From positions 1 through 17,172 of the forward strand of contig JAFTMU010000359.1 in assembly GCA_017452215.1 (NCBI GenBank): 17,172 nucleotides of DNA, in the 5' to 3' direction. The DNA is from Clostridia bacterium. Its GTDB lineage: Bacteria > Bacillota > Clostridia > Oscillospirales > CAG-272. Numbering within the stretch: the stretch's first letter is position 1; every line of letters starts with the position of its first letter. Shown here piece after piece: positions 1 to 15,211 of the stretch. The notes beneath the pieces were generated by a model that searched no databases, was not told the origin of the DNA, and saw only the letters and a list, made by a program, of their open reading frames with translations. The translations under genes and the position numbers were made by a program.

Positions 1-75
1 ACCTTTATTGCGGGACTCTTCCCCTCGGGCTTTGCTGCAAAGCGCAATCCCGTAGAGGCGCTGAGAAGCGAATAA
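1..75 (+). CDS. ABC transporter permease, C-terminal end only
   Basis: Only the last 24 codons and the TAA stop are in the window, read in the first frame. The peptide ends GLFPSGFAAKRNPVEALRSE. A final hydrophobic helix followed by a small-residue turn, a basic AAK/R step and then NPVEALR-E is the typical ending of FtsX/MacB-family permeases, which pair with an ATP-binding protein to drive lipoprotein, peptide or antibiotic export. The substrate and the rest of the protein cannot be judged. A strong terminator follows 16 nt after the stop, so this closes its own transcript. Confidence 0.6.
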   Translation, partial: TFIAGLFPSGFAAKRNPVEALRSE

Positions 76-91
76 TTCAATAAGCTCTTGT

Positions 92-126
92 GCCGTCACA
101 GTTAATTTTGCTGTGACGGCATTTTT
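92..126 (+). terminator. Rho-independent terminator of the upstream permease transcript
   Basis: A perfect 10-bp stem, GCCGTCACAG (92-101) with CTGTGACGGC (111-120), encloses a 9-nt AT-rich loop and is followed by ATTTTT. It separates the permease transcript from the tRNA promoter that starts at 159. Confidence 0.92.
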
Positions 127-158
127 AAAAAAACTTTTGAAAAAATTACAAAAAGGGG

Positions 159-187
159 TTGACAATCCCTGTGGATTGTGGTATAAT
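159..187 (+). promoter_or_regulatory. Consensus sigma-A promoter for tRNA-Ser
   Basis: A perfect -35 TTGACA (159-164) and a perfect -10 TATAAT (182-187) are separated by exactly 17 bp. The start point would lie near 194, a few bases before the mature tRNA. Such a full-consensus promoter is expected for a stable RNA gene. Confidence 0.93.
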
Positions 188-201
188 ACACGGGTCGGCA
201 C

Positions 202-293
202 GGAGAGATGGCTGAGCTGGTCTAAGGCGCACGACTGGAATTCGTGTTTAGGCTAATACCCTAACGAGGGTTCGAATCCCTCTCTCTCCGCCA
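202..293 (+). tRNA. tRNA-Ser(GGA): tRNA-Ser(GGA), CCA encoded
   Basis: A complete class II tRNA of 92 nt. The 7-bp acceptor stem pairs GGAGAGA (202-208) with TCTCTCC (283-289); the discriminator is G290 and the CCA is encoded (291-293). The anticodon stem CACGA/TCGTG (230-234/242-246) encloses loop CTGGAAT, giving anticodon GGA at 237-239, which reads UCC and UCU. A long variable arm (TTAGG/CCTAA) is the serine identity feature. The T arm has GAGGG-TTCGAAT-CCCTC. The acceptor strand also takes part in a longer inverted repeat with downstream sequence. Confidence 0.96.
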
Positions 294-330
294 CGCAAAA
301 GGCACACAGCAGGGTGCCTTTTTTGCGTGG
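291..330 (+). terminator. Bidirectional terminator after tRNA-Ser
   Basis: GGCAC (301-305) pairs with GTGCC (314-318) and is followed by six T. The pairing extends outwards: CCACGCAAAA (291-300) against TTTTTTGCGTGG (319-330), with two extra T on the right. On the minus strand the same hairpin is followed by TTTTGCG, so it can also stop transcription arriving from the DUF6809-like gene. Confidence 0.85.
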
Positions 331-400
331 CGGAGAGAGAGCCTCGGGAGACACTGCCTTGCACAGCAAGGCGAGGGTTCGCATTCGCCGCACGGAGACA
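331..400 (+). pseudogene. Degenerate tRNA-like sequence resembling tRNA-Ser
   Basis: It starts CGGAGAGA, identical to tRNA-Ser 201-208. It later carries CGAGGGTTCG (372-381), identical to the tRNA-Ser T-arm start (264-273), and ends GACA where the tRNA has GCCA. Between these, GCCTTG/CAAGGC forms an anticodon-arm-like hairpin. The acceptor strands no longer pair, the T stem has mismatches and the loop lacks a usable anticodon with U33. It reads as a decayed duplicate of the tRNA rather than a working gene, but chance similarity of the middle part cannot be excluded. Confidence 0.35.
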
Positions 401-405
401 GGCGG

Positions 406-684
406 TTATTCCTCTGCTGTGGGTAGCATTACTTCAAGCATAATTTTTGCTCCGAGCCGAAACGCATATACGAATATTTCCCGTTCGTTGATCTCCGTCA
501 GTTCAGCGTAGCAATCATTGAACTTTTCAAGTATTTCCTTTTGCTTGTCTGTAAGCGTTGCCCACAGGTTGTCATAATGGTCAGCAATATACCCCATCAG
601 CTCCTTGGTTTCTTTCGTTAGCTTTTGCCGGTCTGTGCCGGGGCAAACATTGCCGTACCACAGCTCTTCAAGAATCTTTTTCAT
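406..684 (-). CDS. Small DUF6809-like protein, function unknown
   Basis: This 92-residue protein starts MKKILEELWYGNVCPG and contains an acidic helical middle and a closing FRLGAKIMLEVML segment. The N-terminal 'ILEELWYGN..P' signature, the length and the C-terminal 'F..GFRLGA..M' pattern match, from memory, the DUF6809 family, found widely in Clostridia and often near mobile or accessory genes. No catalytic motif, signal peptide or membrane segment is visible. The start is supported by AGGAG (complement of 692-696) 7 nt upstream and by an extended -10 promoter further up. It stands alone between tRNA-Ser and a dispersed repeat, and its transcript would run into the bidirectional terminator at 291-330. 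Function is unknown. Confidence 0.75.
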   Translation of the reverse strand: MKKILEELWYGNVCPGTDRQKLTKETKELMGYIADHYDNLWATLTDKQKEILEKFNDCYAELTEINEREIFVYAFRLGAKIMLEVMLPTAEE

Positions 685-770
685 TACTCTACTCCTTTTT
701 GTAATTTATTCTTTTTTTCTCTTAAATCTTTGATTCTCATACTTTCCCGTCCTATCTCTTGTTAAAACAC

Positions 771-779
771 ATTATATCA
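771..779 (-). promoter_or_regulatory. Extended -10 promoter for the DUF6809-like gene
   Basis: On the minus strand TATAAT (complement of 771-776) is preceded by TGA, giving the extended -10 form TGN-TATAAT. No good -35 lies 16-18 bp upstream, as is usual for extended -10 promoters. It is about 85 nt upstream of the start codon. The surrounding 700-890 stretch is very AT-rich and holds no other supported gene. Confidence 0.5.
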
Positions 780-934
780 TATCAAATTTCAACATATCGA
801 CTTTTATCTCAAAATGTGATACAAAAAAATGAAAACCGATAAAAAATCGATATTTTTGAATTTAATACTCATATCAAAATTATCTTTTATCCACGCAAAG
901 GCACCCTACTGGGTACTTCAGACGACTGACTAAC

Positions 935-1157
935 CCTGTTATAAAAGTACAGTTCTCAAAATGTATAAACTTTTTAGCCGCTTTTTCTTTGCAGAAAAGA
1001 GGCGCAAAGAAAAAGCTAACAAAAAGAAACGCCGTAAGGGGAATTTCGCCCGTTGCGACGGGCGAGGAGGGCTCTGCGCCCTCCACCGCACCGCCTTTTG
1101 AAAAAGGCGGGCGAAAACTTTTGGTCATTTTGATGGCGCCGGCACCTTTGTCAGCGA
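935..1157. repeat. Dispersed structured intergenic repeat, copy 1
   Basis: This non-coding stretch matches 4692-4955 along most of its length. It holds four hairpins in order: a perfect 13-bp stem GCTTTTTCTTTGC/GCAAAGAAAAAGC (980-992/1004-1016); TCGCCCGT/ACGGGCGA (1046-1053/1058-1065); GGAGGGC/GCCCTCC (1066-1072/1078-1084); and CCGCCTTTT/AAAAGGCGG (1091-1099/1102-1110). The last stem differs from copy 2 by paired substitutions. It carries no protein-coding signal and no transposase, so it resembles a non-autonomous mobile element or a structured-RNA repeat. Imperfect direct repeats flank it at about 902-920 and 1163-1181. Confidence 0.85.
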
Positions 1158-1294
1158 TCTGAGGCACCCAATAGGGCGCTTTTGTGCATAACGGTGTTGG
1201 GGTGGGAGTCTGCGGTTGGCTATATCTGTCGGATCGGGGGGAGTTTTGTCGAGCGAAATGTGGGGGTGGCGGGGACAAAATTTTCAAAATGCTC

Positions 1295-1323
1295 TATACA
1301 AAAAAGATTTTTCGTGTTATAAT
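1295..1323 (+). promoter_or_regulatory. Promoter of rlmB
   Basis: A perfect -10 TATAAT (1318-1323) is preceded by TGT, making an extended -10. With a 17-bp spacer the -35 is TATACA (1295-1300), 4 of 6 to consensus. It lies about 57 bp before the rlmB start chosen here, which argues against the longer reading frame that opens at 1216. Confidence 0.75.
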
Positions 1324-1380
1324 TATTGTAGGTATTTTTTTCGTCGATGCTTCGACACCGAGAAAGGACATGATACATCC

Positions 1381-2298
1381 ATGGAAAACAAAAAGTATTC
1401 TTCCTCTCGCCGTGCTGCGGGAGATAAAAAGAGATCCTTCCCCGAAGGAGGGGCTCGCTCCTTTGAAAAAAGAGAGCGCAACCTTGGCGGTGGGACTCGT
1501 CCCCTGGGAAAGGAGCGTTCCCTTCCCGTTGACGGTTCCTCTGAGGAGGGCATTCACGGGGAGATGGAAAGTGGCGCTGTGATCGGCAGAAACGCTGTGC
1601 GTGAGTTGCTGAAATCCGAGCGTTCCATCGACAAGCTCCTGGTGCAAAAGGGAGAGCGGACAGGCTCTATCGTTGCCCTGGTTGCTGAGGCGATTGAAAG
1701 AAAGATCCCTGTGATCGAAACCGAAAAAGCGAAGCTGGATTCCCTTGCGGGCTTTGCGCCCCACCAGGGTGTGATCGCCTTTGCCGCTGAAAAGGAATAC
1801 TGCTCGGTGGAGGACATTCTTGCCATTGCCAAGGAGCGAGGTGAAGCACCCCTGATCGTGATTTGCGACGGGATCACCGACCCTTACAATCTTGGCGCCA
1901 TCATTCGCTGCGCCGAGTGCTGCGGTGCGCACGGTCTGATCATTCCCAAGCGCCGTGCCGTGGGGCTCACTCCCCTTGTGACCAAGGCATCTGCCGGTGC
2001 CATTGAGCATCTTGCCATTGCAAAGGTTGCGAACATTGCCTCGACCGTTGAAGAATTGAAAAAGGCAGGGGTCTGGACCTATGCCGCCGAGGCGGGTGGG
2101 GAGAGTGTTTACTCCACGGATCTGCGTGGTCCTTGCGCCTTGATCCTTGGAAGCGAGGGCAACGGGGTCTCTCAGCTGGTGCAAAGAACGGCAGACGCTG
2201 TGATCTCCATTCCCATGTATGGGCAGGTCAACTCCTTTAACGTCTCCACAGCTGCGGCGATTCTCTTGGCGGAGGCCGCAAGACAGCATCATCTTTAA
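1381..2298 (+). CDS. rlmB: 23S rRNA (guanosine-2'-O-)-methyltransferase RlmB (TrmH/SpoU family)
   Basis: This SPOUT methyltransferase family transfers a methyl group from S-adenosylmethionine to a ribose 2'-OH; RlmB members modify a conserved guanosine in the 23S rRNA peptidyl-transferase region. With start ATG 1381 the product has 305 residues. The L30e-like substrate-binding domain begins near residue 66 (VIGRNAVRELL). The SpoU motifs follow: motif 1 DPYNLGAIIRCAE (168-180), motif 2 ILGSEGNGV (255-263) and motif 3 IPMYGQVNSFNVSTAAAILL (277-296). Residues 1-62 are a low-complexity Arg/Lys/Gly/Ser tail absent from the core family. An internal ATG at 1564 would give a core-only protein of 244 residues, preceded by GAGGAG. 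I prefer 1381 because AAGGA lies upstream and the promoter is at 1295-1323. Assignment to RlmB rather than another TrmH-type paralogue is by similarity. Confidence 0.88.
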   Translation: MENKKYSSSRRAAGDKKRSFPEGGARSFEKRERNLGGGTRPLGKERSLPVDGSSEEGIHGEMESGAVIGRNAVRELLKSERSIDKLLVQKGERTGSIVALVAEAIERKIPVIETEKAKLDSLAGFAPHQGVIAFAAEKEYCSVEDILAIAKERGEAPLIVICDGITDPYNLGAIIRCAECCGAHGLIIPKRRAVGLTPLVTKASAGAIEHLAIAKVANIASTVEELKKAGVWTYAAEAGGESVYSTDLRGPCALILGSEGNGVSQLVQRTADAVISIPMYGQVNSFNVSTAAAILLAEAARQHHL

Positions 2299-2313
2299 TC
2301 AATCTTTACCATA

Positions 2314-2338
2314 CCTTTGGAATTTTCCAAAAAGGAGG
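2314..2338 (+). promoter_or_regulatory. Small hairpin overlapping the Shine-Dalgarno of the 2343 gene
   Basis: TTTGGAA (2316-2322) pairs with TTCCAAA (2325-2331) over a 2-nt loop. The flanking CC (2314-2315) can pair with GG inside the AAGGAGG ribosome binding site (2332-2338). It could modulate translation of the membrane protein but has no T-tract and is not a terminator, so rlmB and the next gene can be cotranscribed. Confidence 0.4.
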
Positions 2339-2342
2339 ATTC

Positions 2343-4664
2343 ATGAAACAAAATCAAACGTCCGAATCGAACAACAAGGAACGGACTCCCGGATCCGACG
2401 GCGCTGTTACCGAGAAGGAAAAGGGACGGGCGAGCGTGTCCCTTCCCCGCTCTCACGGAGCTCCGGATTTTTTGAAAAAAGAAAGCGCCGACAAGGCGGC
2501 TGCCCCCGCTATAAAAAAGAAGGTTCGCAGGGTGCGTCAGATTCCTGTTTCTCAATTGCCCGAGGACATTGAGCTGGACGAGGAGCTGGACGAGCTTTTG
2601 GAGGACGGCGCAGATATGGAGGAGATCCCCATTGACGCCCCCGAGGAGGTCACGGCGCAAGGGCAAAGATCCAATCCTCTCCTCTCCCGCATCAGAGAAC
2701 GTCGGGAAAGGCAAGCCGAGGAGAATCTGAGCGCCTTGGAGCTGATTCGCAAGAAGAGCGGCTTTTCGGAGGACGACATTGCCATGATGCTGGAGCTTGG
2801 CTATGAGAGTGAGCTTGGCAGAGTGGTGGGATACGACAATCTCAAGCGTCTGAAAAACGATCATAAAAACAAAATGCATTCTCACTCCCACAAGCAATAT
2901 CAGCTGACGGCCCTTGGCCTTTGCGGTGAGGAAAATGCCAACGCCCGCACAAAGGCTCGCATTATTGCCGCCTATGCACGGGACAGAAAGTACTTGATCC
3001 TGCGAACGCTTCTGACTGCTCTTGCCACGATCCTGCTTTTGTTCCTGGATCTGCCCTTGCTGATCGGAAGTGAATTTGCCGCAGGGCTGGGAGCCTATCC
3101 GCTCCTCCTTCCCATTGTATCGGCTTGTGTGTTCGTTTTGGCATCGGCGCTCTCCTATCGGCAGCTGATCGCAGGGCTGAAAAGTGCTTTTGCGCTTCAT
3201 CCGTCCCCCTACTCTCTGCCTGCGCTTCTCTTTCCCTTATGCTTTTGCTACGACGTCACCTGTCTGATTGCGGGTGGGGCGACGATTCGTATCAACTTTA
3301 TCTATGCGGCTCTTTTGTTGCTCTATGCGATCTGTGACGTGCTCCGTTTGCTTTGCGAGATGCGGGTATTCCGCTTGGTCGCCACGGACTCGGTCAAAAC
3401 TGTATTGGAGTCAACGGTGCCCCGTAAGAAAAAGCTCAGGCAAGGAAAGAAGCTGGTCAAGATCATCAACGACGATATTGACGAGAGCTTTTACCGTGTA
3501 CATCACGCCGAGGAGACCGAGGGCTTTTTCCGCCGCTTTAACACCTTCTCCTCTGTCAGCCGACACATTTACGTGCTTTTGGGTGTGATGCTTGGCTCTG
3601 CTTTTACCGTCTCCTTTGTATATCTCATTGCACGTGCCGATCCTATGGGAGCGCTTTCTGCCTTTGCGACGGTGCTGTTTGCCTCTGCTCCCGTGGTTTC
3701 CGCCGTTGCCTGGTTCTATCCTCTATGCCGTGCGAACAAGCTCCTGTCCGAGCGCAACTGCGCTTTGGTGGGAGATGAAGCCGTGGAGGAATACAGCCAC
3801 TCCAAAACCGTAATATTCAACGATTCCATGCTCTACAATGCAGAAAAATGCACGCATATTGCCGTGCGTGAGAGCGAGGATATGCAAAAAGACATGAAGC
3901 TTGCGGGGATCCTGTTCCGCAAGATCGGAGGAGCGCTGGAATCGGTGGGACGGATCAATGCTACCAAAGCGCCCGATCCCTCGGTCGCCTTTGTGCGCAT
4001 TGCAGACAGAGGCGTTGAGGCGATCGTAGACAATCAATACCACATGATTGCGGGACACGCAGAGTTCTTGAAAAAATGTGGGATCCGTATTCCGAAGGAG
4101 ACCTCGGACAAGGCGCTCCGACGGGGAGAGAACACGGGGCTGATGTACGTTTCCATTGACGGCGTATTGAAGCTTCGGTATGAGATCGAATACTCGGTCA
4201 AGCCCTCCTTTGAGCGCATAGCGTGCGATCTCTCGGACATTGACACCACGGTGGCGCTGCAATCCTACGATCCCAACCTCAACGAGGCATTTTTGCAGCT
4301 GAACCGCAGCGGCGGTGCGGCTCCGATCCGCATCATCAAGCCCGGAAGATATGAATCCGACTCGGTGTTGAAGGTTTCGGACACGGGCGCTGTGGCTCTT
4401 GGCGATACCACGGATATTGTCTACCCTCTCCACGCCGCCAAGGGTGCCGCCGCCTCGAAGCACTTTGCAATGAGGCTGCAGCTCTTTTCTACCGCACTGG
4501 GAATTGCGGGCGGAGCGATCCTCGCCTTCCTCTCGCTCCCTCTGCATTTGGTTTCCCTGTCTGTTGCCCTTTATCACGGCGGTTGTATTCTTGTTTCCGT
4601 GATTGCAACCCATATCAACTTGAACAAGCGTAAGCTCCATATGAATAAAAAAAGGAAGCGCTGA
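2343..4664 (+). CDS. Heavy-metal P-type ATPase-like membrane protein lacking the catalytic motifs (pseudoenzyme)
   Basis: The 773-residue product has a cytosolic N-terminal region (1-215) with a very acidic patch (72-102) and a His-rich bit (HSHSHK, 179-184). Membrane segments lie near 217-243, 251-275, 289-312, 317-340, 408-430, 437-462, 711-733 and 735-757. This 4+2+2 layout is that of P1B (CPx) ATPases. Residues 446-498 align with the region running from the CPC helix to the phosphorylation loop, but CPC is replaced by SAP and FDKTGTLT by FNDSMLYN, so the phosphorylated Asp is Asn493. A remnant nucleotide-domain segment (HAEFLKKCGI, 572-581), SYD in place of TGD (641-643), no DGxND motif, and a short 341-405 loop without TGE complete the picture. 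The last helix keeps the family's YHGGCILVSV pattern. It is unlikely to pump ions by ATP hydrolysis; role unknown. AAGGAGG lies 4 nt before the start. The gene is 44 bp after rlmB. Confidence 0.8.
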   Translation: MKQNQTSESNNKERTPGSDGAVTEKEKGRASVSLPRSHGAPDFLKKESADKAAAPAIKKKVRRVRQIPVSQLPEDIELDEELDELLEDGADMEEIPIDAPEEVTAQGQRSNPLLSRIRERRERQAEENLSALELIRKKSGFSEDDIAMMLELGYESELGRVVGYDNLKRLKNDHKNKMHSHSHKQYQLTALGLCGEENANARTKARIIAAYARDRKYLILRTLLTALATILLLFLDLPLLIGSEFAAGLGAYPLLLPIVSACVFVLASALSYRQLIAGLKSAFALHPSPYSLPALLFPLCFCYDVTCLIAGGATIRINFIYAALLLLYAICDVLRLLCEMRVFRLVATDSVKTVLESTVPRKKKLRQGKKLVKIINDDIDESFYRVHHAEETEGFFRRFNTFSSVSRHIYVLLGVMLGSAFTVSFVYLIARADPMGALSAFATVLFASAPVVSAVAWFYPLCRANKLLSERNCALVGDEAVEEYSHSKTVIFNDSMLYNAEKCTHIAVRESEDMQKDMKLAGILFRKIGGALESVGRINATKAPDPSVAFVRIADRGVEAIVDNQYHMIAGHAEFLKKCGIRIPKETSDKALRRGENTGLMYVSIDGVLKLRYEIEYSVKPSFERIACDLSDIDTTVALQSYDPNLNEAFLQLNRSGGAAPIRIIKPGRYESDSVLKVSDTGAVALGDTTDIVYPLHAAKGAAASKHFAMRLQLFSTALGIAGGAILAFLSLPLHLVSLSVALYHGGCILVSVIATHINLNKRKLHMNKKRKR

Positions 4665-4676
4665 CAGGGCGCTCTC
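4654..4676 (+). repeat. Direct repeat (left) flanking repeat copy 2
   Basis: A 23-bp sequence matches 4958-4980 with one difference (C/T). It contains a small hairpin AGCGC-TGACAGG-GCGCT and overlaps the stop codon of the preceding gene (4662-4664). It brackets the dispersed repeat with its partner, like a target-site duplication or a duplicated terminator-like hairpin. Confidence 0.85.
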
Positions 4677-4691
4677 AACCTACTGAAAAAA

Positions 4692-4955
4692 CCTGCTATA
4701 AAAAGAACAACTCATCAAAAGGCATAAACTTTTTAGCCGCTTTTTCTTTGCAGAAAAGAGGCGCAAAATGAAATAGGCTTCGCAAGCTCAGCCGCAATTG
4801 CAAGCAATTGCAGCTAACAAAAAGAAACGCCGCAAGGGGATTTCGCCCGTTGCGACGGGCGAGGAGGGCTACTTGCCCTCCACCCCGCAAGCTTTTGAAA
4901 AAGCTTGACCAAAACTTTTCGTCAAAATGACAGTGCTGACTCCTATGTCAGCAAG
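4692..4955. repeat. Dispersed structured intergenic repeat, copy 2
   Basis: This is the second copy of the 935-1157 repeat and occupies nearly all of the 344-bp gap between the P-type ATPase-like gene and the radical SAM gene. The left part (GCATAAACTTTTTAGCCGC and following) is nearly identical to copy 1. The right arm of the first hairpin is replaced by a stretch of roughly 45 nt (about 4769-4811) ending in two palindromes GCAATTGC (4794-4801, 4804-4811). Hairpins TCGCCCGT/ACGGGCGA (4843-4862), GGAGGGC/GCCCTCC with a changed loop, and CAAGCTTTT/AAAAGCTTG (4888-4907) follow. A terminal hairpin GCTGAC/GTCAGC lies near 4935-4952. No coding function is seen. Confidence 0.85.
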
Positions 4956-4957
4956 TC

Positions 4958-4980
4958 GGAAGCGCTGACAGGGTGCTCTC
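4958..4980 (+). repeat. Direct repeat (right) flanking repeat copy 2
   Basis: Partner of 4654-4676, one mismatch in 23. Its hairpin AGCGC-TGACAGG-GTGCT keeps pairing through a G-T wobble and is followed by CTCCTTTTTCT, which resembles a terminator. This suggests the original terminator of the upstream gene now sits beyond the inserted element. Confidence 0.8.
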
Positions 4981-5008
4981 CTTTTTCTACAGAAAGGCTT
5001 GATACCGA

Positions 5009-7633
5009 ATGAACGTAATAAAAGAAAACCGACCCAACAGTACCATCTTGAAATCCGTGTCCAAGCCCGGCAGGTACGCCGGCGGCGAATACGGACAGAT
5101 CATCAAGGATAAAGCGGCTGTTAAAGCTCGCTTTGCCTTCTGCTTCCCCGATACCTACGAGATCGGAATGTCCAATCTGGGAATGCGCCTGCTTTACGGC
5201 GTCTTGAACCGGCACCCCGATATCTGGTGTGAGCGAGTTTTCGACCCCTGGGTGGATATGCAGGAGGTCATGCGCAAGCACGACCTGCCCCTGACTGCTT
5301 TGGAAAGCGGAGATCCCCTTCGGGAATTTGATTTCGTTGGCTTTACGCTCCAATACGAAATGAGCTACACGAACGTGCTCAATATGCTGGAGCTCGGGCA
5401 CATTCCCCTGCGCTCCGTGGAAAGAGGCGAGGACGATCCCTTGGTCATCGGCGGCGGTCCCTGTGCCTACAATCCCGAGCCGATTGCAGATTTCTTTGAT
5501 CTTTTTAACATCGGCGAGGGAGAGGATATGCTCCCCGAGATCGTCCGTCTTTACATCAAAATGAAAGAGGAGGGACGGTACTCCAGAAGTGCCTTTTTGC
5601 ACGAGGCGGCAAGAACCATTCAGGGAGTGTACGTGCCCTCTCTGTACACGGTCACCTATCATCCCGATGGGACGATCGATGCCTATACCCCCATCTATGA
5701 CGACATTCCCAAGAGGGTAACCAAGCAGATCATCAAGAATCTGGATCAAGTGTATTTCCCCGACAAGGTGGTAATGCCCTACATTGAAACGGTACACGAC
5801 CGCATTATGTTAGAGGTCTACCGTGGCTGCATCAGAGGCTGCCGCTTTTGTCAGGCGGGAATGATCTACCGTCCTGTGCGGGAGAAGAGCCACGACGTGC
5901 TTGATGCACAAGCAAAGGCACTCTACGACAGCACGGGATATGAGGAGATCTCTCTTTCCTCTCTCTCCATCAGTGATTACACCGAATTGGAGCCTCTTTG
6001 CGACAAGCTCCTCTCCTGGACGGACGACAACATGGTGAGCCTTTCTCTCCCCTCGCTCCGTGTGGACAGCTTTAACAAGGATCTGATGCGGCGGATCGAA
6101 TCGGTGCGCTCCTCCTCCCTCACCTTTGCCCCCGAGGCGGGCACCCAGCGCTTGCGTGACGTGATCAACAAAAATGTGCGTGAGGAGGACGTGATGCGTG
6201 CGGTAAACGTCGCCTTTGACGCCCGCAAAAATGCAGTCAAGCTCTATTTTATGAACGGTCTTCCTACGGAGACGCTTGAGGATATTGAAGGGATCGCTAC
6301 CCTGGCGGAGCACGTGGTGGACGCCTACTATCAGAATCCCAATCGGAACAAAGCCCGTCCCGTACAGGTGACGGTGAGCGTTTCCTGCTTTATTCCCAAG
6401 CCCTTTACTCCCTTCCAGTGGGAGGCGCAGGACACCATGGAGATGCTTGCGGAAAAGCAGGAATATCTGAAAACCAAGATCAAAAACAAGCACGTGCGCT
6501 ATCAGCACCACGATGCAAAGGTCTCCCGAATCGAGGCGGTCTTAGCCCGTGGGGACAGACGCCTTTCCGATGCGTTGGAGCTTGCCGTGAAGGAGGGCTT
6601 TTGCTTTGATGCGTGGGACGAGTATTTCGACTATGACAAGTGGCTCTCGGTATTTGAACGCACGGGAATTGATCCTGTCTTTTATGCCAACCGTGCCTTT
6701 GGCACGGACGAGGTCCTGCCTTGGGACATCATTGATTGCGGTGTGACGAAGGAATTCTTTTTGAAGGAACGCCAAAGGGCGTATGCCGGCGCTACTACGC
6801 CCAACTGCCGTGAAAAGTGCTCTGCCTGCGGTGCCAACGCCCTGGGCGGTGTGCGTGCCGTTTGCCCCGGGTGCAAAAGCGCTCCTCAAGAAGAGAAAAA
6901 GGCGGACGTGGATCCGCTCAAAAAGGATGCCACCGCTTGGCCTTTGTTGGAGCCCTATAAGACGGTGCGGATCAAATTCCGCAAGGTAGGGGATCTTCAA
7001 TACATCTCCCACTTGGATCTGCAACGGACCATTGCAAGAGTTTTGGTACGGGCAGATATTCCCATGTGGTACACCCAGGGGTTCAATCCCCATGCCAAGG
7101 TGATCTTCGGGCTTCCCCTTTCGGTGGGGACTGAAAGCGAATGCGAGTTCATCGATCTGCGCATCGCCCGTGACATACCCCTGACACTAGTGAAGGAGCA
7201 GCTCAATCGGGAATTGACCGAGGAGATGCAGGTGCTGGACGCCTACGAGCCAAGTTCGAAATTCTCGGACATTGCCTGGGCGGACTACGAGATCGTTCTG
7301 CATCTTGAAAACGCCACAAAGAAGCTTTGCGAACAGTTGCTCTCTCTTTACACCACCGCTCCCCTTTTGATGACGAAGAAGTCCAAATCGGGAGAAAAAG
7401 AGGTGGATCTAATCCCCATGATCCGTCGCATTGGCGTTTGCTTGGAGGAGAACGGTGATATCCGTCTGTCGGCGCAGCTACGTGCGGGAAGCACCGAACA
7501 TCTCAACCCCGAAATGCTGATCACGGCGGCAAAGGAGAGGTGTGGAATCCTCTCGGGAGATCCTGCCAAGGAGAGCTATTCGATTTTGAGAACCCACGTC
7601 TACGTTGATGACGGAATAACCGAATTTGTGTGA
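5009..7633 (+). CDS. B12-binding-type radical SAM protein (TIGR03960-like) fused to a DUF2344 (TIGR03936-like) domain
   Basis: The product has 874 residues. The N-terminal part has a cobalamin-binding-like fold region (about 40-240, including GGGPCAYNPEP at 148-158), then a radical SAM core from about 262 with the cluster motif RGCIRGCRFC; Cys274, Cys278 and Cys281 would hold the [4Fe-4S] cluster that cleaves S-adenosylmethionine. A Cys-rich patch follows (Cys600, 604, 607, 619, 622), a possible extra metal site. From about 651 (YKTVRIKFRKVGDLQYISHL) to the end lies a DUF2344 domain. In Clostridia these two families are adjacent or fused. The substrate is unknown; an RNA or ribosomal target has been suspected from neighbourhood but is not shown here. 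AAAGG lies 11 nt upstream. The next gene begins 10 nt after its stop, suggesting cotranscription. Confidence 0.9.
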   Translation: MNVIKENRPNSTILKSVSKPGRYAGGEYGQIIKDKAAVKARFAFCFPDTYEIGMSNLGMRLLYGVLNRHPDIWCERVFDPWVDMQEVMRKHDLPLTALESGDPLREFDFVGFTLQYEMSYTNVLNMLELGHIPLRSVERGEDDPLVIGGGPCAYNPEPIADFFDLFNIGEGEDMLPEIVRLYIKMKEEGRYSRSAFLHEAARTIQGVYVPSLYTVTYHPDGTIDAYTPIYDDIPKRVTKQIIKNLDQVYFPDKVVMPYIETVHDRIMLEVYRGCIRGCRFCQAGMIYRPVREKSHDVLDAQAKALYDSTGYEEISLSSLSISDYTELEPLCDKLLSWTDDNMVSLSLPSLRVDSFNKDLMRRIESVRSSSLTFAPEAGTQRLRDVINKNVREEDVMRAVNVAFDARKNAVKLYFMNGLPTETLEDIEGIATLAEHVVDAYYQNPNRNKARPVQVTVSVSCFIPKPFTPFQWEAQDTMEMLAEKQEYLKTKIKNKHVRYQHHDAKVSRIEAVLARGDRRLSDALELAVKEGFCFDAWDEYFDYDKWLSVFERTGIDPVFYANRAFGTDEVLPWDIIDCGVTKEFFLKERQRAYAGATTPNCREKCSACGANALGGVRAVCPGCKSAPQEEKKADVDPLKKDATAWPLLEPYKTVRIKFRKVGDLQYISHLDLQRTIARVLVRADIPMWYTQGFNPHAKVIFGLPLSVGTESECEFIDLRIARDIPLTLVKEQLNRELTEEMQVLDAYEPSSKFSDIAWADYEIVLHLENATKKLCEQLLSLYTTAPLLMTKKSKSGEKEVDLIPMIRRIGVCLEENGDIRLSAQLRAGSTEHLNPEMLITAAKERCGILSGDPAKESYSILRTHVYVDDGITEFV

Positions 7634-7643
7634 GGAAAAGGCC

Positions 7644-8564
7644 ATGATCGATACGGATATTCAACTGACGGGCGGCGGATATATCGCTGATATTTCCAGC
7701 CGCTTGGGCGGTATTTGCTACCGCCTGGTGCACTCTGTCACGGGGGCAGATCTTTTGCGGACACCCAAGGACGAAGCGCACCTTTTAGAAAACGTTTACC
7801 TTTTTGGAAATCCTCCCCTCTTTCCCCCAAATCGCATCCTTGGAGGACGGTTTGTTTTTGAGGGAAAAGAATACCTCTTACCGCTGAACGAGCCGTCAAC
7901 GGGATGCCATATTCATGGGGCGTTGTACAAGATGCCCTTTGTGATCGAGAAGTTGGAAGAAAGCCGTGTGCGTTTGGTTTTTGAGGAAAAAGCGGGAGAA
8001 TACATCTGCTTTCCTCATGCCTTTCTCTTTGTAAGAGAGTATCTCTTGGACGAGAACGGATTATTGGAAAGAGATACGGTGACCAATCTCTCTCCCTCGG
8101 TGATGCCCTTTATGCTGGCATACCACACCACGTTTAACATTCCCTTTATCAATGGATCGGCGCCATGGGAGCATCGCATTCGCCTTGATACGGGGCGGGA
8201 GGAACTGCGAACCGAGAAATTTATTCCCACGGGGGAATTCCGTGACGTGGGAGAGAGAGAAGAAAAATTCCGTTGCGGCGAATACGTCCCCTTTGGAGAG
8301 CATCTTTCCGCCTTTTACGAGGCGTCGGGGGAGATGGTGATGCGTGACGTCAATAGCGGGGTGGAATTGTTTTACGATGCGGATCGGGAGGCGTTCCCTT
8401 ACCGCATGCTCTTTCAAACGGTGGAGGGCTCCTTCTTCGTTTGTGAGCCCCAAACCACGGCTATTGATTGCTTTCATCTGCCGCCCGCAAAGGGAGACTA
8501 CGGGCTTGTCCGCATCTCTCCCGGGGAACAAAAGACCTATTGGACCCGTATGGGAGTAAGATAA
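7644..8564 (+). CDS. Aldose 1-epimerase (mutarotase) family protein
   Basis: The 306-residue product belongs to the galactose-mutarotase-like fold, which interconverts alpha and beta anomers of hexoses. Catalytic positions are visible: GCHIHG (His89/His91) in the first substrate loop, YHTTFNI (His161, the usual general acid) and CEPQTTAIDCFH (Glu268, the usual general base). I start at ATG 7644 because AGGAAAAGG sits just upstream; an in-frame TTG at 7626 lacks a ribosome binding site and overlaps the previous gene. The true sugar is uncertain because this branch includes poorly characterised homologues of GalM. It closes the plus-strand operon and is followed directly by a strong terminator. 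Confidence 0.87.
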   Translation: MIDTDIQLTGGGYIADISSRLGGICYRLVHSVTGADLLRTPKDEAHLLENVYLFGNPPLFPPNRILGGRFVFEGKEYLLPLNEPSTGCHIHGALYKMPFVIEKLEESRVRLVFEEKAGEYICFPHAFLFVREYLLDENGLLERDTVTNLSPSVMPFMLAYHTTFNIPFINGSAPWEHRIRLDTGREELRTEKFIPTGEFRDVGEREEKFRCGEYVPFGEHLSAFYEASGEMVMRDVNSGVELFYDADREAFPYRMLFQTVEGSFFVCEPQTTAIDCFHLPPAKGDYGLVRISPGEQKTYWTRMGVR

Positions 8565-8568
8565 AAAA

Positions 8569-8618
8569 GGGGGTGTCTCAAATGCGTTTCGCATTTGGTC
8601 GACACCCCCCTGGTTTTT
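8569..8618 (+). terminator. Terminator of the radical SAM-mutarotase transcript
   Basis: GGGGGTGTC (8569-8577) pairs with GACACCCCC (8601-8609). Inside it, CAAATGCG (8579-8586) pairs with CGCATTTG (8590-8597) over a TTT loop. TTTTT follows at about 8614-8618. The inner hairpin sequence recurs in the cca terminator at 8889-8916. Confidence 0.88.
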
Positions 8619-8621
8619 GCT

Positions 8622-8640
8622 TTGCGGCTTGACGCCGCAA
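8622..8640. repeat. Inverted repeat in the convergent intergenic region
   Basis: TTGCGGC (8622-8628) and GCCGCAA (8634-8640) form a 7-bp stem with loop TTGAC, followed by TTTTC. It may be a back-up terminator after the one at 8569-8618. Confidence 0.6.
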
Positions 8641-8704
8641 TTTTCGTCCGTAATTTGACCGTATTTGATCGTACTTGCAAACGAAAAACGCAAATTCCCA
8701 GCAC

Positions 8705-8730
8705 AAAAAAGCCTACCATCGGCTTTTTTT
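8705..8730. terminator. Symmetrical A/T-flanked hairpin, possible bidirectional terminator
   Basis: AGCC and GGCT with a 7-nt loop are flanked by six A on the left and eight T on the right, so either strand shows a stem followed by a T-tract. The GC stem is short, so strength is uncertain. Confidence 0.55.
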
Positions 8731-8736
8731 GCGCAA

Positions 8737-8771
8737 GAGGCTGTCTCAAATTTGCAATTTGAGACAGCCTC
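8737..8771. repeat. Perfect 16-bp inverted repeat
   Basis: GAGGCTGTCTCAAATT (8737-8752) and its exact complement (8756-8771) enclose a 3-nt loop TGC. Its TGTCTCAAAT core matches the outer part of the 8569-8610 terminator, suggesting a common origin. No T-tract follows on the plus strand. Confidence 0.9.
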
Positions 8772-8772
8772 G

Positions 8773-8859
8773 ATGAATTGCAACCCGGCGGTTGCATGAA
8801 TTGAGCACAAGTGCTCATGAATTGGCTTCGCCATGAATTGCGCCAAGGCGCATGAGGTG
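8773..8859 (+). repeat. Modular array: ATGAATTG units alternating with different hairpins
   Basis: ATGAATTG occurs at 8773, 8796, 8817 and 8833, with a decayed fifth copy ATGAGGTG at 8852. Between the copies are four unrelated short inverted repeats that share only their closing G: GCAACC/GGTTGC, GAGCAC/GTGCTC, GGC/GCC and GCGCC/GGCGC. The constant unit plus a variable stem gives a string of small hairpins on fixed linkers. The unit is far shorter than a CRISPR repeat and the intervening pieces are palindromic, so this is not CRISPR. The outer ends (GAATTGCAAC at 8775-8784 and GTTGTAATTC at 8859-8868) can pair 9 of 10 and would enclose the array. Confidence 0.85.
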
Positions 8860-8876
8860 TTGTAATTCAATCCATT

Positions 8877-8916
8877 AAAAAATTTTGACGACCAAATGCG
8901 AAATCGCATTTGGTCG
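8877..8916 (-). terminator. Terminator of the folT-folC-queT-cca transcript
   Basis: CGACCAAATGCGA (8889-8901) and TCGCATTTGGTCG (8904-8916) form a perfect 13-bp stem with a 2-nt loop. On the minus strand it is followed by TCAAAATTTTTT, and on the plus strand by CCACTCTTTTTT, so it may work in both directions. It begins 10 bp beyond the cca stop codon. Confidence 0.8.
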
Positions 8917-8926
8917 CCACTCTTTT

Positions 8927-10276
8927 TTATTGCTGATCAAAGGTGAGCTGCTTTGCGTAGGAAAGAAGCGCTTCCCTTTCGTTGGCAAGGCGTTCTTCGA
9001 TGACGGCATCCAAAAGAAGGTTCAGAATCTCGCCCATGCCCTTGCCTGCGGGAATTCCGATGGCAAGCAGGTCTCCCCCCTTGACTGCCAGATCGGCAAG
9101 GGTCAGGCAGGCTGCTTCCTCACGGATTTGCTGCATGATCTCAGGGACCCGAAAGATCTCGGGCGGCACCTCTCTGAAAAAGGAGGCATGCGCCAAGCGG
9201 TCGCAACGTTTGAGCTCTAACAAGCGGTAGATATCCTCGTCGGACAGCTTTTGCATCAAGCGCTTGACGCTCTTTCTTTGCGGTGCAATGGGAAGATCGT
9301 GCAATTCTACCAAGAGCTTCATTCTTGCTACTGTATCGTTATCAAAGCGCAGGCGGCGCAGGATCTGCTCGGTCAGATCCACGCCGATAGGAGCGTGCCC
9401 CTTGAAATGTCCGCCGTTTTCATCCTCGGTATAGCAATGGGGCTTGCCGATATCGTGAAAAAGAATGGACAGTCGGGTAAGGAGATCGTCGGTCTCGCAT
9501 TCGTCCAGCGCATAGAGGGTGTGGTCAAGCACGTCATAGCAATGGTACTTGGTGTTTTGATCAAAGCCTTGGCACAGGGCAAGCTCGGGGAGAAAAACAG
9601 AGATGACATCCATATACTCTCTTATAATCCGTACCGCTCCCACTCCTGTGAGCAGCTTGCAGAATTCCTCCCGAATGCGCTCGGCGGCAATGCCGGAGAG
9701 CAGAGAGGAATGAGAGTGGATCGCCCTTGCGGTTTCCTCCTCCACTCTGAAGTTTAAAACAGATGCGAAGCGGATGGCACGGAGAATGCGAAGTCCGTCC
9801 TCCTCGAAGCGTTTTTCCGCTTGTCCGACACAACGGATCACTCGGTTTGAAAGATCCCGTCTACCATCAAAGAGATCGATCAGACCGTGCTTTGGGTGAT
9901 ATGCCATAGCGTTGACGGTAAAATCCCTGCGGGAAAGATCGTCACGGATATTTTTTGAGAAGGTAACGCTGGCAGGATGGCGGTTATCGAGGTATTCCCC
10001 ATCGGAACGATAGGTGGTGATCTCGATCTGCTGTCCCTCAACGATCACTGCCACCGTACCGTGCTTAATGCCCGTTTCGATGACTCGGTGATCGAAAAAG
10101 GTCTCGATGATCTGGGTGGGAAGCGCAGAGGTGGTAACATCCCAATCGTTGGGAGTGCGGTCAAGGAGGCTGTCACGGACGCATCCGCCGACAATATACG
10201 CTTCGTGACCGTTTGCTTCCAAGCGGTCGAGCACTTTTTGTATCTCATTTGGTACAGAGATGCGGATCTGCTCCAT
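8927..10276 (-). CDS. cca: CCA tRNA nucleotidyltransferase with HD domain
   Basis: This 449-residue class II nucleotidyltransferase adds or repairs the 3'-terminal CCA of tRNAs. Visible motifs: the active-site GGCVRD (30-35) and metal-binding DWD (44-46); RRDFTVNAMAY (116-126); and EDGLRILRAIRFA (159-171) of the neck and nucleotide-recognition region. A C-terminal HD domain has LFHDIGKPH (272-280). HD-containing forms usually carry phosphohydrolase activity as well, by family knowledge. A strong AAGGAGG lies 6 nt upstream of the ATG. It is the last gene of the folT operon, 21 bp after queT. The neighbouring tRNA-Ser already encodes CCA, so the enzyme may serve mainly repair for that tRNA. Confidence 0.95.
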   Translation of the reverse strand: MEQIRISVPNEIQKVLDRLEANGHEAYIVGGCVRDSLLDRTPNDWDVTTSALPTQIIETFFDHRVIETGIKHGTVAVIVEGQQIEITTYRSDGEYLDNRHPASVTFSKNIRDDLSRRDFTVNAMAYHPKHGLIDLFDGRRDLSNRVIRCVGQAEKRFEEDGLRILRAIRFASVLNFRVEEETARAIHSHSSLLSGIAAERIREEFCKLLTGVGAVRIIREYMDVISVFLPELALCQGFDQNTKYHCYDVLDHTLYALDECETDDLLTRLSILFHDIGKPHCYTEDENGGHFKGHAPIGVDLTEQILRRLRFDNDTVARMKLLVELHDLPIAPQRKSVKRLMQKLSDEDIYRLLELKRCDRLAHASFFREVPPEIFRVPEIMQQIREEAACLTLADLAVKGGDLLAIGIPAGKGMGEILNLLLDAVIEERLANEREALLSYAKQLTFDQQ

Positions 10277-10297
10277 GGTTTTCCTCCTTTTTTGATT

Positions 10298-10795
10298 TTA
10301 TTTAAAGATTTTATTTGCGTGCTTCTTGAGGGACGCATATAAAAGCAGTCCCAATACGTATGCGCTGATGATCTCCCCGATTCCCACGGTGAGCATCAAA
10401 AACGGGATCCCCTCCTCGGCACCATAGGCATAGCAAAGGACAAAGGGAACGGTGACAGTGTTGGCGATGACGGTGGGCAGTGGGGTCAATGCAGGATGCT
10501 TGCGCAACAGGTATGCGCCAAGCGCTCCCAAAAGCGTTGCCAACGTGCCAAACAGGACGTCCTGCCACAGACACCCTGTGAGAAGATTGGAGATCAGGCA
10601 CCCAAGCGTCACGCCGGGGATCGCTGCAGAAGTAAAAATCGGAAGCACGCAGAGTGCCTCCGATATTCGGCACTGGATCGCTGCGTTGCCAAGGGGACCG
10701 ATGAGGACGGTGATGGCAGTGTACAATGCGCCAATCACGCCTGCTTGGCAAATGAAAATCAACGTACGCCGATTTGTTTTGGTTTTGGTGTTCAT
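10298..10795 (-). CDS. queT: QueT-family ECF transporter S component (queuosine precursor uptake)
   Basis: This 165-residue hydrophobic protein has about five or six membrane segments. The stretch ISEALCVLPIFTSAAIPGVT (45-64) is the hallmark of the QueT family. QueT proteins are the substrate-binding subunits of energy-coupling factor transporters for queuosine precursors such as preQ0 or preQ1. No ATPase or EcfT subunit lies in this window, so it probably shares a group II ECF module with FolT. A preQ1-I riboswitch directly precedes it and contains its ribosome binding site (AAGGAG, 9 nt before the ATG), which independently supports the substrate. It lies 60 bp after folC and 21 bp before cca. 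Confidence 0.92.
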   Translation of the reverse strand: MNTKTKTNRRTLIFICQAGVIGALYTAITVLIGPLGNAAIQCRISEALCVLPIFTSAAIPGVTLGCLISNLLTGCLWQDVLFGTLATLLGALGAYLLRKHPALTPLPTVIANTVTVPFVLCYAYGAEEGIPFLMLTVGIGEIISAYVLGLLLYASLKKHANKIFK

Positions 10796-10804
10796 AACGG
10801 TATG

Positions 10805-10846
10805 CTCCTTAGTTTTGTTTTGCGTGAGGATGGTTTCGAACTCACG
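10805..10846 (-). promoter_or_regulatory. preQ1-I riboswitch controlling queT
   Basis: On the minus strand, stem P1 CGTGAG (complement of 10841-10846) pairs with CTCACG (complement of 10823-10828). The loop TTCGAAACCATC fits the class I pattern TTC-N4-CCA-N-C. An A-rich tail follows and ends ACTAAGGAG, where ACTAA is the conserved pseudoknot strand and AAGGAG is the queT Shine-Dalgarno. Ligand binding would hide the ribosome binding site, giving translational shut-off when preQ1 is plentiful. It sits entirely in the 60-bp folC-queT gap, so it would control queT within an operon rather than the whole transcript. Confidence 0.85.
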
Positions 10847-10855
10847 GGATAAAAT

Positions 10856-12136
10856 TTATCCTATATACTCGGCTATTGCCGTAGATACCTCTTTATAAAG
10901 ATACAGAGATCCGAGACAGATCAAGGGGGTGTGTTCCCTTTTGCATTCCTCGATGGCTGCGCTCACAGCCGCCTCGATGCTTTCGTACGCCACGGCGTTG
11001 AGCTTGTGTCTTTGGCAATGCTCGGCATATTCCTTTGCCGTAAGAGCACGGGGATTTTGCGGGGTGACGGTAAAGATCTTGTTTGCTACGGGCTTGAGCG
11101 CCTCGATCATAGCATCGAAATCCTTATCAATCATAACGCCGCTGAGTATATTGACCTGCTCCTCGGGGAAATACGCCTGAATGCTCTTGACAGCGGAATT
11201 GACGCCCTGGGGATTGTGTCCCCCGTCATAAATAATGATAGGATCCTTGGAAAGAAGCTCAAAGCGTGCCTGCCAGGTAACGCTTTTCAGTCCCTCTCGG
11301 ACGGCGTTCTCGGGAATTACAAAGCCGTGCTCCGTTTTTAAAATCTCTAACGCCGTGAGAACGACGGTTGCGTTATAGGGCTGGTAGGTACCCAAGAGGG
11401 AGAGCTCCAAGCCTTCATATTCTCCAAAATCGAACACGGTACCGTCAAGGGTCGCCTCCCTTTGGCGGAAGGTGGAGCGGTCAACGGTGTGGAAAACGGC
11501 ATGGCGCAGATCCGCAAAGGAGCGAATAGTTCGACAAGCGGCGTTTTCCTCGCCCCCGTACAATACAGGGCAGTCCTCCTTGATGATCCCCGCCTTTTCG
11601 GCGGCGATGGACTGAATGGTATTGCCCAAAAGAGCAGTATGGTCAAAATCGATGCCTGTAATGATGGAAAGCAAGGGCTTATTGATAACATTGGTGGGGT
11701 CAAAGCGTCCGCCCAAGCCTACCTCCAACACCACCACGTCCACGTTCTGGCTATTGAAATAGGCAAAGCCGATGGCGGTGATCAGCTCAAACTCGGTGAA
11801 GGGCTCATCCATCTCCCGTGTGATCTGTAAGATACGCTCAGTCCATTCGGCAAGGGCGTTCTCCCCTACCGGCTCTCCGTCGATGCGAATGCGCTCACGG
11901 AAGTCTTGAATATAGGGAGAGGTGAAAAGTCCCACACGGTAACCTGCCGCCCGCAGAACGGAATGCAGCATGGCGCAGGTACTGCCCTTTCCGTTAGTAC
12001 CTGCTACGTGAACGTATTTAAGGTTTTGTTGCGGATTTCCCAAGCGCTCCAAAAGATTGGAAATACGGGAAAGCCCCGGGGTAGCTTGGTTAGATCCTCC
12101 CGAATGGATCAGTTGGATCGCTTCTTCACAATTCAT
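10856..12136 (-). CDS. folC: Bifunctional folylpolyglutamate synthase / dihydrofolate synthase
   Basis: The 426-residue Mur-ligase-family enzyme adds glutamates to folates, trapping them in the cell; many bacterial forms also make dihydrofolate from dihydropteroate. Visible motifs: P-loop GTNGKGS (46-52), the FTSPYIQDFRERIRIDG folate-binding region (71-87), ITGIDFDHTALLG with the metal and Mg-binding residues, AAEKAGIIK carrying the usually carbamylated Lys, and YDGGHNPQG in the C-terminal domain. It starts 12 bp after folT stops, and its AAGGA site overlaps the folT stop codon, so the two are translationally close. With the FolT importer next door and no folate-biosynthesis genes in view, salvage followed by polyglutamylation is the likely role here. 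Confidence 0.95.
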   Translation of the reverse strand: MNCEEAIQLIHSGGSNQATPGLSRISNLLERLGNPQQNLKYVHVAGTNGKGSTCAMLHSVLRAAGYRVGLFTSPYIQDFRERIRIDGEPVGENALAEWTERILQITREMDEPFTEFELITAIGFAYFNSQNVDVVVLEVGLGGRFDPTNVINKPLLSIITGIDFDHTALLGNTIQSIAAEKAGIIKEDCPVLYGGEENAACRTIRSFADLRHAVFHTVDRSTFRQREATLDGTVFDFGEYEGLELSLLGTYQPYNATVVLTALEILKTEHGFVIPENAVREGLKSVTWQARFELLSKDPIIIYDGGHNPQGVNSAVKSIQAYFPEEQVNILSGVMIDKDFDAMIEALKPVANKIFTVTPQNPRALTAKEYAEHCQRHKLNAVAYESIEAAVSAAIEECKREHTPLICLGSLYLYKEVSTAIAEYIG

Positions 12137-12148
12137 AAATAACCATCC

Positions 12149-12739
12149 TTAATTCGTTGTTGAAGAATATCGTGGGGAGAGCTTTGCGATTGCCCGTCTC
12201 AGAGGCGGCAGTAAAAGCGGAATGGATACGGAAGATATGACGGCTCTTGCCAAGGCATTGAGCAGTCTTGCAGGCAGCAATAGGTGCAATGCCTTGACGG
12301 AATAGCCCAGGATCGCTCCGTCGATATAAAGAGCTGCCGTGTTGAGTGCGGTGAGCAAAAGCTCACAGACTGCAATGGTGATGACCGTGAGGATCAGCTT
12401 TGCTTTTTTGGAAGGCAGTCTGCACAGGTACATTGCCGACAAGGAAGCGCACAATGCCATCACCGTGCCCGGGACAAGCCACATGGGAAGCGTGACAAAG
12501 CCGTAGGGCGAGGGATCAATGACCTGCTCCACAAAGGTGCCGAGCAGTGCCACGCCTACCGCATCCAAAGGGCGGAACAAAAAGGCACTGAGCAGGATCG
12601 GGATCGTCGAAAAGGAGATCTGGATCGCTCCCGGGATCTTGAAGGACGCAAAGGTGCTCAGCACCACGTACAGAGCCACAAACAGAGCGTCAAGGGTCAT
12701 GCGGTAAACGTTGGACCGTGCAGAAAATGAGTTGTGCAT
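12149..12739 (-). CDS. folT: Folate-family ECF transporter S component FolT
   Basis: With start ATG at 12739 the protein has 196 residues, about six membrane segments and the pattern ASFKIPGAIQISFSTIPILL, followed by a FVEQVIDPSPYGF-type loop typical of the folate family of ECF S components. It captures folates for import and depends on shared EcfA/EcfA'/EcfT subunits not encoded here. The start is fixed by AAGGAGG 7 nt upstream; a longer frame reaching 12904 runs through the riboswitch and is not real. A THF riboswitch, intrinsic terminator and consensus promoter lie upstream, and folC follows at 12 bp. Context and riboswitch together make the folate assignment firm. Confidence 0.9.
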   Translation of the reverse strand: MHNSFSARSNVYRMTLDALFVALYVVLSTFASFKIPGAIQISFSTIPILLSAFLFRPLDAVGVALLGTFVEQVIDPSPYGFVTLPMWLVPGTVMALCASLSAMYLCRLPSKKAKLILTVITIAVCELLLTALNTAALYIDGAILGYSVKALHLLLPARLLNALARAVISSVSIPLLLPPLRRAIAKLSPRYSSTTN

Positions 12740-12769
12740 AAAAATTCCTCCTTTTCCACCCATAATGGC

Positions 12770-12796
12770 AAAAAGGAGAAATGCTTTGCTCATTTC
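12770..12796 (-). terminator. Leader terminator of the THF riboswitch
   Basis: On the minus strand GAAATG (complement of 12791-12796) pairs with CATTTC (complement of 12778-12783), followed by TCC and five T. The terminator's left strand overlaps ATGAA, which could instead pair with TTCAT of the riboswitch P1 3' strand. That gives a plausible antiterminator when ligand is absent. The stem is short, so this is a moderate call. Confidence 0.6.
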
Positions 12797-12811
12797 ATCA
12801 TTCAAGCCTTT

Positions 12812-12926
12812 ATGAAGCGGGATGCAAAACACAGACCGCAAAAGCCTCGCTTTTTTCGTCCTGCCGACAACTCCCCGTTCGGCAAGCACTCCGGATCTCT
12901 CCAACGCCCGTGTTTTTACTCTTCAT
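12812..12926 (-). promoter_or_regulatory. Tetrahydrofolate (THF-I) riboswitch upstream of folT
   Basis: Read on the minus strand, the folT leader matches the THF-I layout. P1 is ATGAAG/CTTCAT. Conserved AGUA follows, then P2 AAAACACGGGC pairing over 11 bp (with wobbles) with GGUCUGUGUUUU. Next come conserved GCGUU, GUG, P3 CUUGCCGA/UCGGCAGG around loop ACGGGGAGUUG (family ACGGGAUGUUG), conserved ACGAA, a P4 AAAAGC/GCUUUU, CGGU and finally GCAUCC before P1 closes. Two departures are described under findings: an extra mini-hairpin after GCGUU and an altered pseudoknot loop. It should reduce folT-folC expression when reduced folates are abundant. Confidence 0.82.
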
Positions 12927-12933
12927 TCATTCT

Positions 12934-12952
12934 TCGCCTTATAAAAAGGCGA
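12934..12952 (-). other. 5'-terminal hairpin of the folT leader
   Basis: TCGCCTT and AAGGCGA form a 7-bp stem with loop TTTAT, starting about 10 nt after the likely transcription start. It precedes the riboswitch aptamer and may protect the 5' end of the transcript. Confidence 0.55.
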
Positions 12953-12968
12953 TTTACCTTCATCGTAT

Positions 12969-12997
12969 ATTATATTCCCCAAAATAGGGCTTGTCAA
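12969..12997 (-). promoter_or_regulatory. Consensus sigma-A promoter of the folT operon
   Basis: On the minus strand a perfect -35 TTGACA (complement of 12992-12997) and perfect -10 TATAAT (complement of 12969-12974) are 17 bp apart. The leader to the folT start is about 220 nt long and holds the THF riboswitch and a terminator. Confidence 0.93.
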
Positions 12998-13044
12998 GAC
13001 GGGAAAATGACAATCCTTTGATTATTTGGCTTCTTTTTCTTGGT

Positions 13045-13100
13045 AATAATGACATGAGATGGGGCGAGTCAAAGACTTAGCCCCATCTCATGTCATTATT
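13045..13100. repeat. 21-bp perfect inverted repeat over the end of ftsH
   Basis: Positions 13045-13065 and 13080-13100 are exact reverse complements (AATAATGACATGAG... and its partner). The 14-nt loop itself can form AGTC-AAA-GACT. The right arm covers the ftsH stop codon (13096-13098). Neither strand has a following T-tract, so it is not a typical intrinsic terminator. It may protect the ftsH mRNA 3' end or act as an RNase III substrate. Confidence 0.9.
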
Positions 13101-15177: not shown

Positions 15178-15211
15178 TGGGTTTTTCTTCCTCCGTTATT
15201 GGCTTGCGCCG

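Follow-up and report, generated by a model that had tools for sequence, protein, structure and literature searches.

The pump cycle of P-type ATPases is established to require a phosphorylatable DKTGT, TGE, TGD and GDGxND, and a helix-6 motif of the CPC/CPH/SPC type. The nearest described parallel to a P-type fold lacking such chemistry, itself disputed, is human TMEM94 (ERMA): it has a P-type-ATPase-like architecture without TGES, with ten helices and D417 kept at the proposed site, and its authors report no ATPase activity, a single conformation under six conditions and, in their comparison, a closest resemblance to SPCA (PMC12134183). A further report presents it as a Mg2+ ATPase (PMC13322241). 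The literature covered (titles and listings, most subscription journals lying outside coverage) yielded neither a bacterial pseudo-P-type ATPase nor a link between rlmB and a P-type ATPase. The subject here is a gene in a 17,172-nucleotide stretch of DNA, the window, from a Clostridia bacterium of the order Oscillospirales (GCA_017452215.1, contig JAFTMU010000359.1, positions 1 to 17,172). The fold of its product, the loss of motifs, the selection, the spread and the place behind rlmB are computed; from them we infer a pseudo-P1B-ATPase, a copper-pump fold without pump chemistry that, on balance, probably serves as a membrane-anchored scaffold or regulator.

The fold of the protein is that of a copper pump, with eight membrane helices, phosphorylation (P) and nucleotide-binding (N) domains and a rudimentary actuator (A) domain. 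An earlier note, made from the letters of this DNA, had described a frame without disruption at 2343..4664 and a 4+2+2 membrane layout; the frame matches exactly (+ strand, 773 aa) and the layout is reproduced in a structure model with a mean predicted local distance difference test score (pLDDT) of 85.1 and a predicted template-modelling score (pTM) of 0.80. The helices run from 201-236, 255-283, 291-310 and 318-346, then 403-431 and 434-469, then 689-730 and 734-759, and helix 6 (434-469) is broken near P450. The actuator loop is indeed shrunken and devoid of TGE, but it measures 56 residues (347-402) and not the approximately 65 first given. Profile-profile alignment (hhalign) against 13 pump sequences gives 99.7% and E 9.4e-26 over 532 columns: the likeness to P-type pumps exceeds chance. 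Structure and profile both find the P1B-type similarity that had been proposed, though the match to NCBIfam TIGR01525 (heavy-metal P-type ATPase; E 0.0019) lies far under its cut-off, at 17.2 bits vs 346.

A Pfam scan of the window protein gave nothing credible, and a single-sequence search of solved structures returned one irrelevant match only. Searching 5.8 billion proteins with the window protein found 173 matches at E <= 0.001; the searches were followed through the best 120 of 173 and the best 120 of 174 matches, and in the former every protein bearing a source name is called hypothetical. A profile built from 17 distant members matched 31 proteins, the last two of which (E 3.6e-4 and 3.7e-4) are P-type ATPases with PF00122 and PF00702. 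Among the 51 members scanned (41 plus 10), none gave a Pfam P-type match above cut-off or, at E 0.01, a metal-binding Pfam domain, and viral contigs contained no relative.

In the alignment with the 13 pumps, N493 falls on the phosphorylated Asp, APV 449-451 on CPC, SYD 641-643 on TGD and GA 530-531 on HP, and no counterpart of the GDGxND segment is found in the window protein; the four losses read earlier (Asp to Asn493, CPC, TGD replaced by SYD, DGxND missing) all stand. An order-wide alignment sets 61 members (22 near-clade rows, the window included, and 39 others) beside 11 P1B pumps; 21 of the 23 near loci entered it, L010 and L025 having dropped out when a longer overlapping frame was chosen. 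Its identity is low, so single-column counts are approximate. The strings DKTGT, GDGxND, CP[CHS], [ST]PC and SEHP occur in 0/61 members, and TGD stands in its own column in no row of the alignment table. TGE is absent from the window protein, and TGE[SA] occurs somewhere in the sequence of 2/61 members. To judge by these motifs, the known pump chemistry is gone from the pseudo-P1B-ATPase: a phosphorylatable DKTGT, TGE, TGD, GDGxND and a CPC/CPH/SPC-type helix 6 are what a working pump would show, and they are not found. With DKTGT in none of the 61, this is a P1B-type relative, by fold and profile match, that has lost its pump motifs, and not a lone decaying copy among close relatives with intact pumps.

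Other residues are conserved instead. The phospho-Asp column is varied (N 35, R 15, D 6, A 5, S 4, H 3, P 3 and others among 74 near homologues; D in 14/61 order-wide) and its neighbour D494 is conserved (71/74 and 51/61; K in all 11 pumps), so that N493 represents a single state within a column that drifts; its fixation across a clade, for which the earlier note had proposed a test, is not supported. Y617 is found in 58/61 members (D in all 11 pumps), D643 in 57/61, N645 in 53/61, P450 in 74/74 near homologues and 52/61 order-wide, and G557, the second Gly of the N-domain GxG, in 60/61; column 496 is D or E in 49/61 (Met in the window protein) and column 748 is Trp in 52/61 (Cys in the window protein). 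In the near clade K666, P667 and E671 are kept in 72, 72 and 70 of the 74.

D494, with Asp at 493 in some members and D643 in most, might be taken for a shifted phosphoacceptor in a pump or transporter of altered chemistry, for which the retained P and N domain folds also speak. We consider this quite unlikely: neither K nor G is left in those two columns of DKTGT in any of the 61 rows, its second T persists in 3/61, the His of SEHP is lost (the adjacent Pro persists in 21/61), the GDGxND segment is missing, and the Asp shifts column between lineages. D494-x-D/E496 resembles motif I of haloacid dehalogenase (HAD)-fold enzymes, and the frequency of D or E at 496 would suit some other HAD enzyme, such as a phosphatase; the missing motif IV segment, the Met at 496 in the window protein and the 10/61 members without Asp at 494 make that very improbable.

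The pseudo-ATPase family is under purifying selection. Fifteen pairs were compared, 14 of them with finite dS; they share members and do not include the window. The ratio of nonsynonymous to synonymous substitution rates (dN/dS), with approximate domain borders, is 0.026-0.220 for the core, 0.003-0.134 for the P/N part and 0.047-0.328 for the N-terminal tails, and in 12/14 pairs the P/N part is more tightly constrained than the core. The proposal that selection has kept the protein without its pump motifs is upheld by these values, by the order-wide spread and by the newly conserved residues; strong constraint, taken together with those residues, suggests that a function has been retained, probably one other than pumping. 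A decaying relic of a pump, or pseudogene, would account for the lost catalytic motifs and is hardly credible: low dN/dS, order-wide presence and newly conserved residues speak against it. A passive channel or facilitator that retained the pump's membrane part, helix 6 still being broken at P450 (52/61), is likewise quite improbable, since the CPC cysteines are lost (Cys at 449 retained in one of 61) and a bare channel would not need cytosolic domains held more tightly than the core.

The family is spread across the order, which consists of mostly uncultured gut bacteria. A near-clade profile, A1, matched 52/147 order genomes, and a wider one, A2, matched 393/395; weak A2 matches may be true pumps, and loci were therefore checked. 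Of the two genomes without an A2 match, one (G027) has a contig that ends 422 bases past rlmB and the other (G090) has no rlmB above cut-off (best match 2.8e-31), so that both absences may be assembly gaps. Outside the order but in the same class, 273/371 genomes have an A2 match, none stronger than E 1.2e-19, and the ten best of these matches (L098, L100-L108) all carry DKTGT and GDGxND.

The gene begins 44 nt past the stop codon of rlmB, whose product modifies ribosomal RNA, and the suggestion that its orthologues follow rlmB holds widely. rlmB is the immediate upstream neighbour, on the same strand, in 42/44 loci; between it and the called start lie 907 nt in L018 and 1151 nt in L021. In 53/53 genomes with both places taken from lists, rlmB is followed by the pseudo-ATPase gene on one contig and strand, scored by a match start 54-2748 nt past the rlmB match, unaligned tail included; 16 of the 53 were read at the level of open reading frames (ORFs). 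Behind rlmB, 19 of the 20 genomes whose matches are weak carry a P-type-like ORF (544-1056 aa, in no case with DKTGT), and in the twentieth the contig ends. These 53 and 20 genomes, a selection among the rows listed for the 147, do not amount to a full census; the 72 with the rlmB-linked gene span 23/26 family codes of the order. The downstream radical S-adenosylmethionine (SAM) gene (TIGR03960/TIGR03936) is also the next gene in 18 of the 21 near-clade rows besides the window.

A P1B pump match at 1e-60 is found in 146/147 order genomes (144 above cut-off), and the window's own genome has two pumps above cut-off. The second of these (L003, contig C295) scores 559.5 bits to TIGR01525 and reads DKTGP, not DKTGT. 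Such company would suit a protein that joins the cell's true P1B pumps as a subunit or inhibits them, an unlikely role in our estimate, since the gene adjoins rlmB and not a pump, and one genome (G100; 94% complete, hence not proof) carries it with no P1B match at 1e-60.

Twenty rlmB loci outside the order (12 families, some short contigs) contain no member of the pseudo-ATPase family. Three of them, all from the family coded f40, have a CopA-type pump of 736-740 aa, and among the 14 f40 genomes in which rlmB was located, 5 show an intact CopA-type pump that starts 17-36 nt behind the rlmB match (L149-L151, L169-L173). These five linked pumps have DKTGT, GDGxND, TGD, TGE, CPx and SEHP and form one clade (100/98); in addition to PF00122 and PF00702, the two that were scanned have a metal-binding HMA domain. 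Synteny suggests that the pseudo-ATPase family may have derived from the rlmB-linked CopA of f40. The family itself forms a single clade (100/100), its stem ~3 changes per column long; the best tree keeps all copper pumps together (93/69) and places the family outside them. Its joining point may yet differ, approximately unbiased tests giving p-AU 0.0995 when it is constrained to join linked CopA and 0.156 with unlinked copper pumps. The RlmB tree places f40 with f41, f33 and f70 (97/95) and not with the window's own order, so that the f40 linkage of rlmB and pump may be independent; a tree joining that order with f40 is not rejected (p-AU 0.216).

The N-terminal tails have a median length of 341 aa in 104 non-identical frames, some of them one gene at different extent. 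The acidic character reported earlier is common in the family, 82 of the 104 tails being net negative; the tail of the window protein itself is close to neutral, with a net charge of -1 across 227 residues, and the His-rich stretch taken for a regulatory feature is not family-wide (median His 1.1%). Family tails contain a short motif like [YF].[LI]D[DE]ILAE, for example YALDDILAEF, FSLEDILAEF or YTLDEILAEA. A strict expression for it, composed after inspection of the tails, is matched in 13/39 members outside the near clade (L119-L123, L125, L126, L129, L140, L141, L143, L144 and L146), in 0/13 pump sequences and in 0 of 200 shuffles. A degenerate DNA pattern gave eight matches in ten genomes: three in the pseudo-ATPase family, one in the tail of an ABC-2 transporter-domain protein (PF01061; L188:235-1557, - strand) and four elsewhere. 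What the pseudo-ATPases and this protein have in common is possibly a docking peptide.

In the scaffold or regulator that we favour, the altered P/N-domain face (residues 494, 496, 617, 643 and 645) would bind partners, as would the long N-terminal tail, in which one in three of the other lineages carries the short motif; the level of the protein would be set by its expression jointly with rlmB. The earlier note had offered a sensor, a scaffold or a metal-binding regulator; the metal-binding part is not supported (no CP[CHS] or [ST]PC in 61 members, no metal-binding Pfam domain, no conserved His stretch), and a sensor or scaffold is what we would still infer. Several points weigh against this assignment. 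The tail motif is in neither the window protein nor any of the 22 near-clade rows. The place next to rlmB may reflect no more than an operon frozen in evolution, with the two genes not coupled in function. With P1B pumps in 146/147 order genomes a role beside a pump is possible, and Asp in the phospho-Asp column of 14/61 members, with the second GxG Gly in 60/61, makes some nucleotide or phosphate chemistry possible. A bolder proposal, which we put forward tentatively and with more doubt than belief, is that a single conversion, no later than the base of the order, turned a copper-pump fold into a near-universal, rlmB-tied, non-transporting membrane hub recruiting partners through a disordered tail with a short motif also carried by another membrane protein.

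Table 1. Positions in the window of the pseudo-P1B-ATPase gene, its parts and its neighbours
Feature	Position	Strand	Basis or remark
Pseudo-P1B-ATPase gene, 773 aa	2343..4664	+	Uninterrupted open frame, 773 codons, no internal stop
Shine-Dalgarno AGGAGG	2333..2338	+	4 nt ahead of ATG 2343
N-terminal tail, residues 1-106, mostly predicted disordered	2343..2660	+	pLDDT <50 for 1-76 and 85-106
Helices 1-4, residues 201-346	2943..3380	+	Predicted structure
Shrunken actuator-like loop without TGE, residues 347-402	3381..3548	+	56 residues, four strands; column counts
Helices 5-6, residues 403-469; P450 (codon 3690-3692) in CPC column	3549..3749	+	P450 conservation
VIFNDSMLY, residues 490-498, replaced phosphorylation motif; N493 in phospho-Asp column, D494 adjacent	3810..3836	+	Alignments
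N-domain fold, residues 498-618	3834..4196	+	
SYDPN, residues 641-645, replacing TGDN	4263..4277	+	D643 57/61, N645 53/61
KPGRYE, residues 666-671, near-clade conserved; GDGxND segment missing nearby	4338..4355	+	Column counts
Helices 7-8, residues 689-759	4407..4619	+	Predicted structure
rlmB, conserved upstream neighbour	1216..2298	+	Matches TIGR00186 over 1576-2286; start codon uncertain
Radical SAM gene (TIGR03960/TIGR03936), immediate downstream neighbour	5009..7633	+	Family matches; near-clade rows

Elsewhere in the window, a dispersed repeat has two copies (4681-4955 and 925-1155); the copy downstream of the pseudo-ATPase gene is flanked by a 23-nt direct repeat (4654-4676 and 4958-4980), and the stretch 4655-4985 has 21 matching rows in its own genome, itself included. 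A tetrahydrofolate (THF) riboswitch (RF01831, 12813-12925, - strand, 73.7 bits) lies at the start of a gene that resembles folate-family energy-coupling factor (ECF) S components with a score below the cut-off of that family's model. A QueT transporter lies at 10298-10795 on the - strand (PF06177, E 1.6e-40; no NCBIfam match at 1e-5).

Set beside the P1B-1 copper ATPases (CopA, 3rfu/4bbj; ATP7B; HMA4), the pseudo-ATPase family has the same fold and domain order (4+2+2 helices, P and N domains, the A domain cut to 56 residues in the window protein) and has in common with them the Pro of CPC (52/61), the second Gly of GxG (60/61) and the Asp of TGD (57/61). Unlike them it has no DKTGT, GDGxND, CPC cysteines, SEHP or detected metal-binding domain, nor the window protein a TGE, and it has instead a long, mostly disordered N-terminal tail and other conserved residues. 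In 5 of the 14 f40 genomes with a located rlmB, an intact CopA, a P1B-1 copper ATPase, occupies the same place behind it. TMEM94, which is not among the best 50 structure-search rows listed for the window protein and is compared here by description, resembles the family in a P-type-like architecture without TGES and differs from it in being eukaryotic, ten-helical and SPCA-like and in keeping D417. With its many natural variants, its fixed place in the genome and the intact pumps found at that place in another order, the bacterial family makes directly testable what a pump fold can do without pumping.
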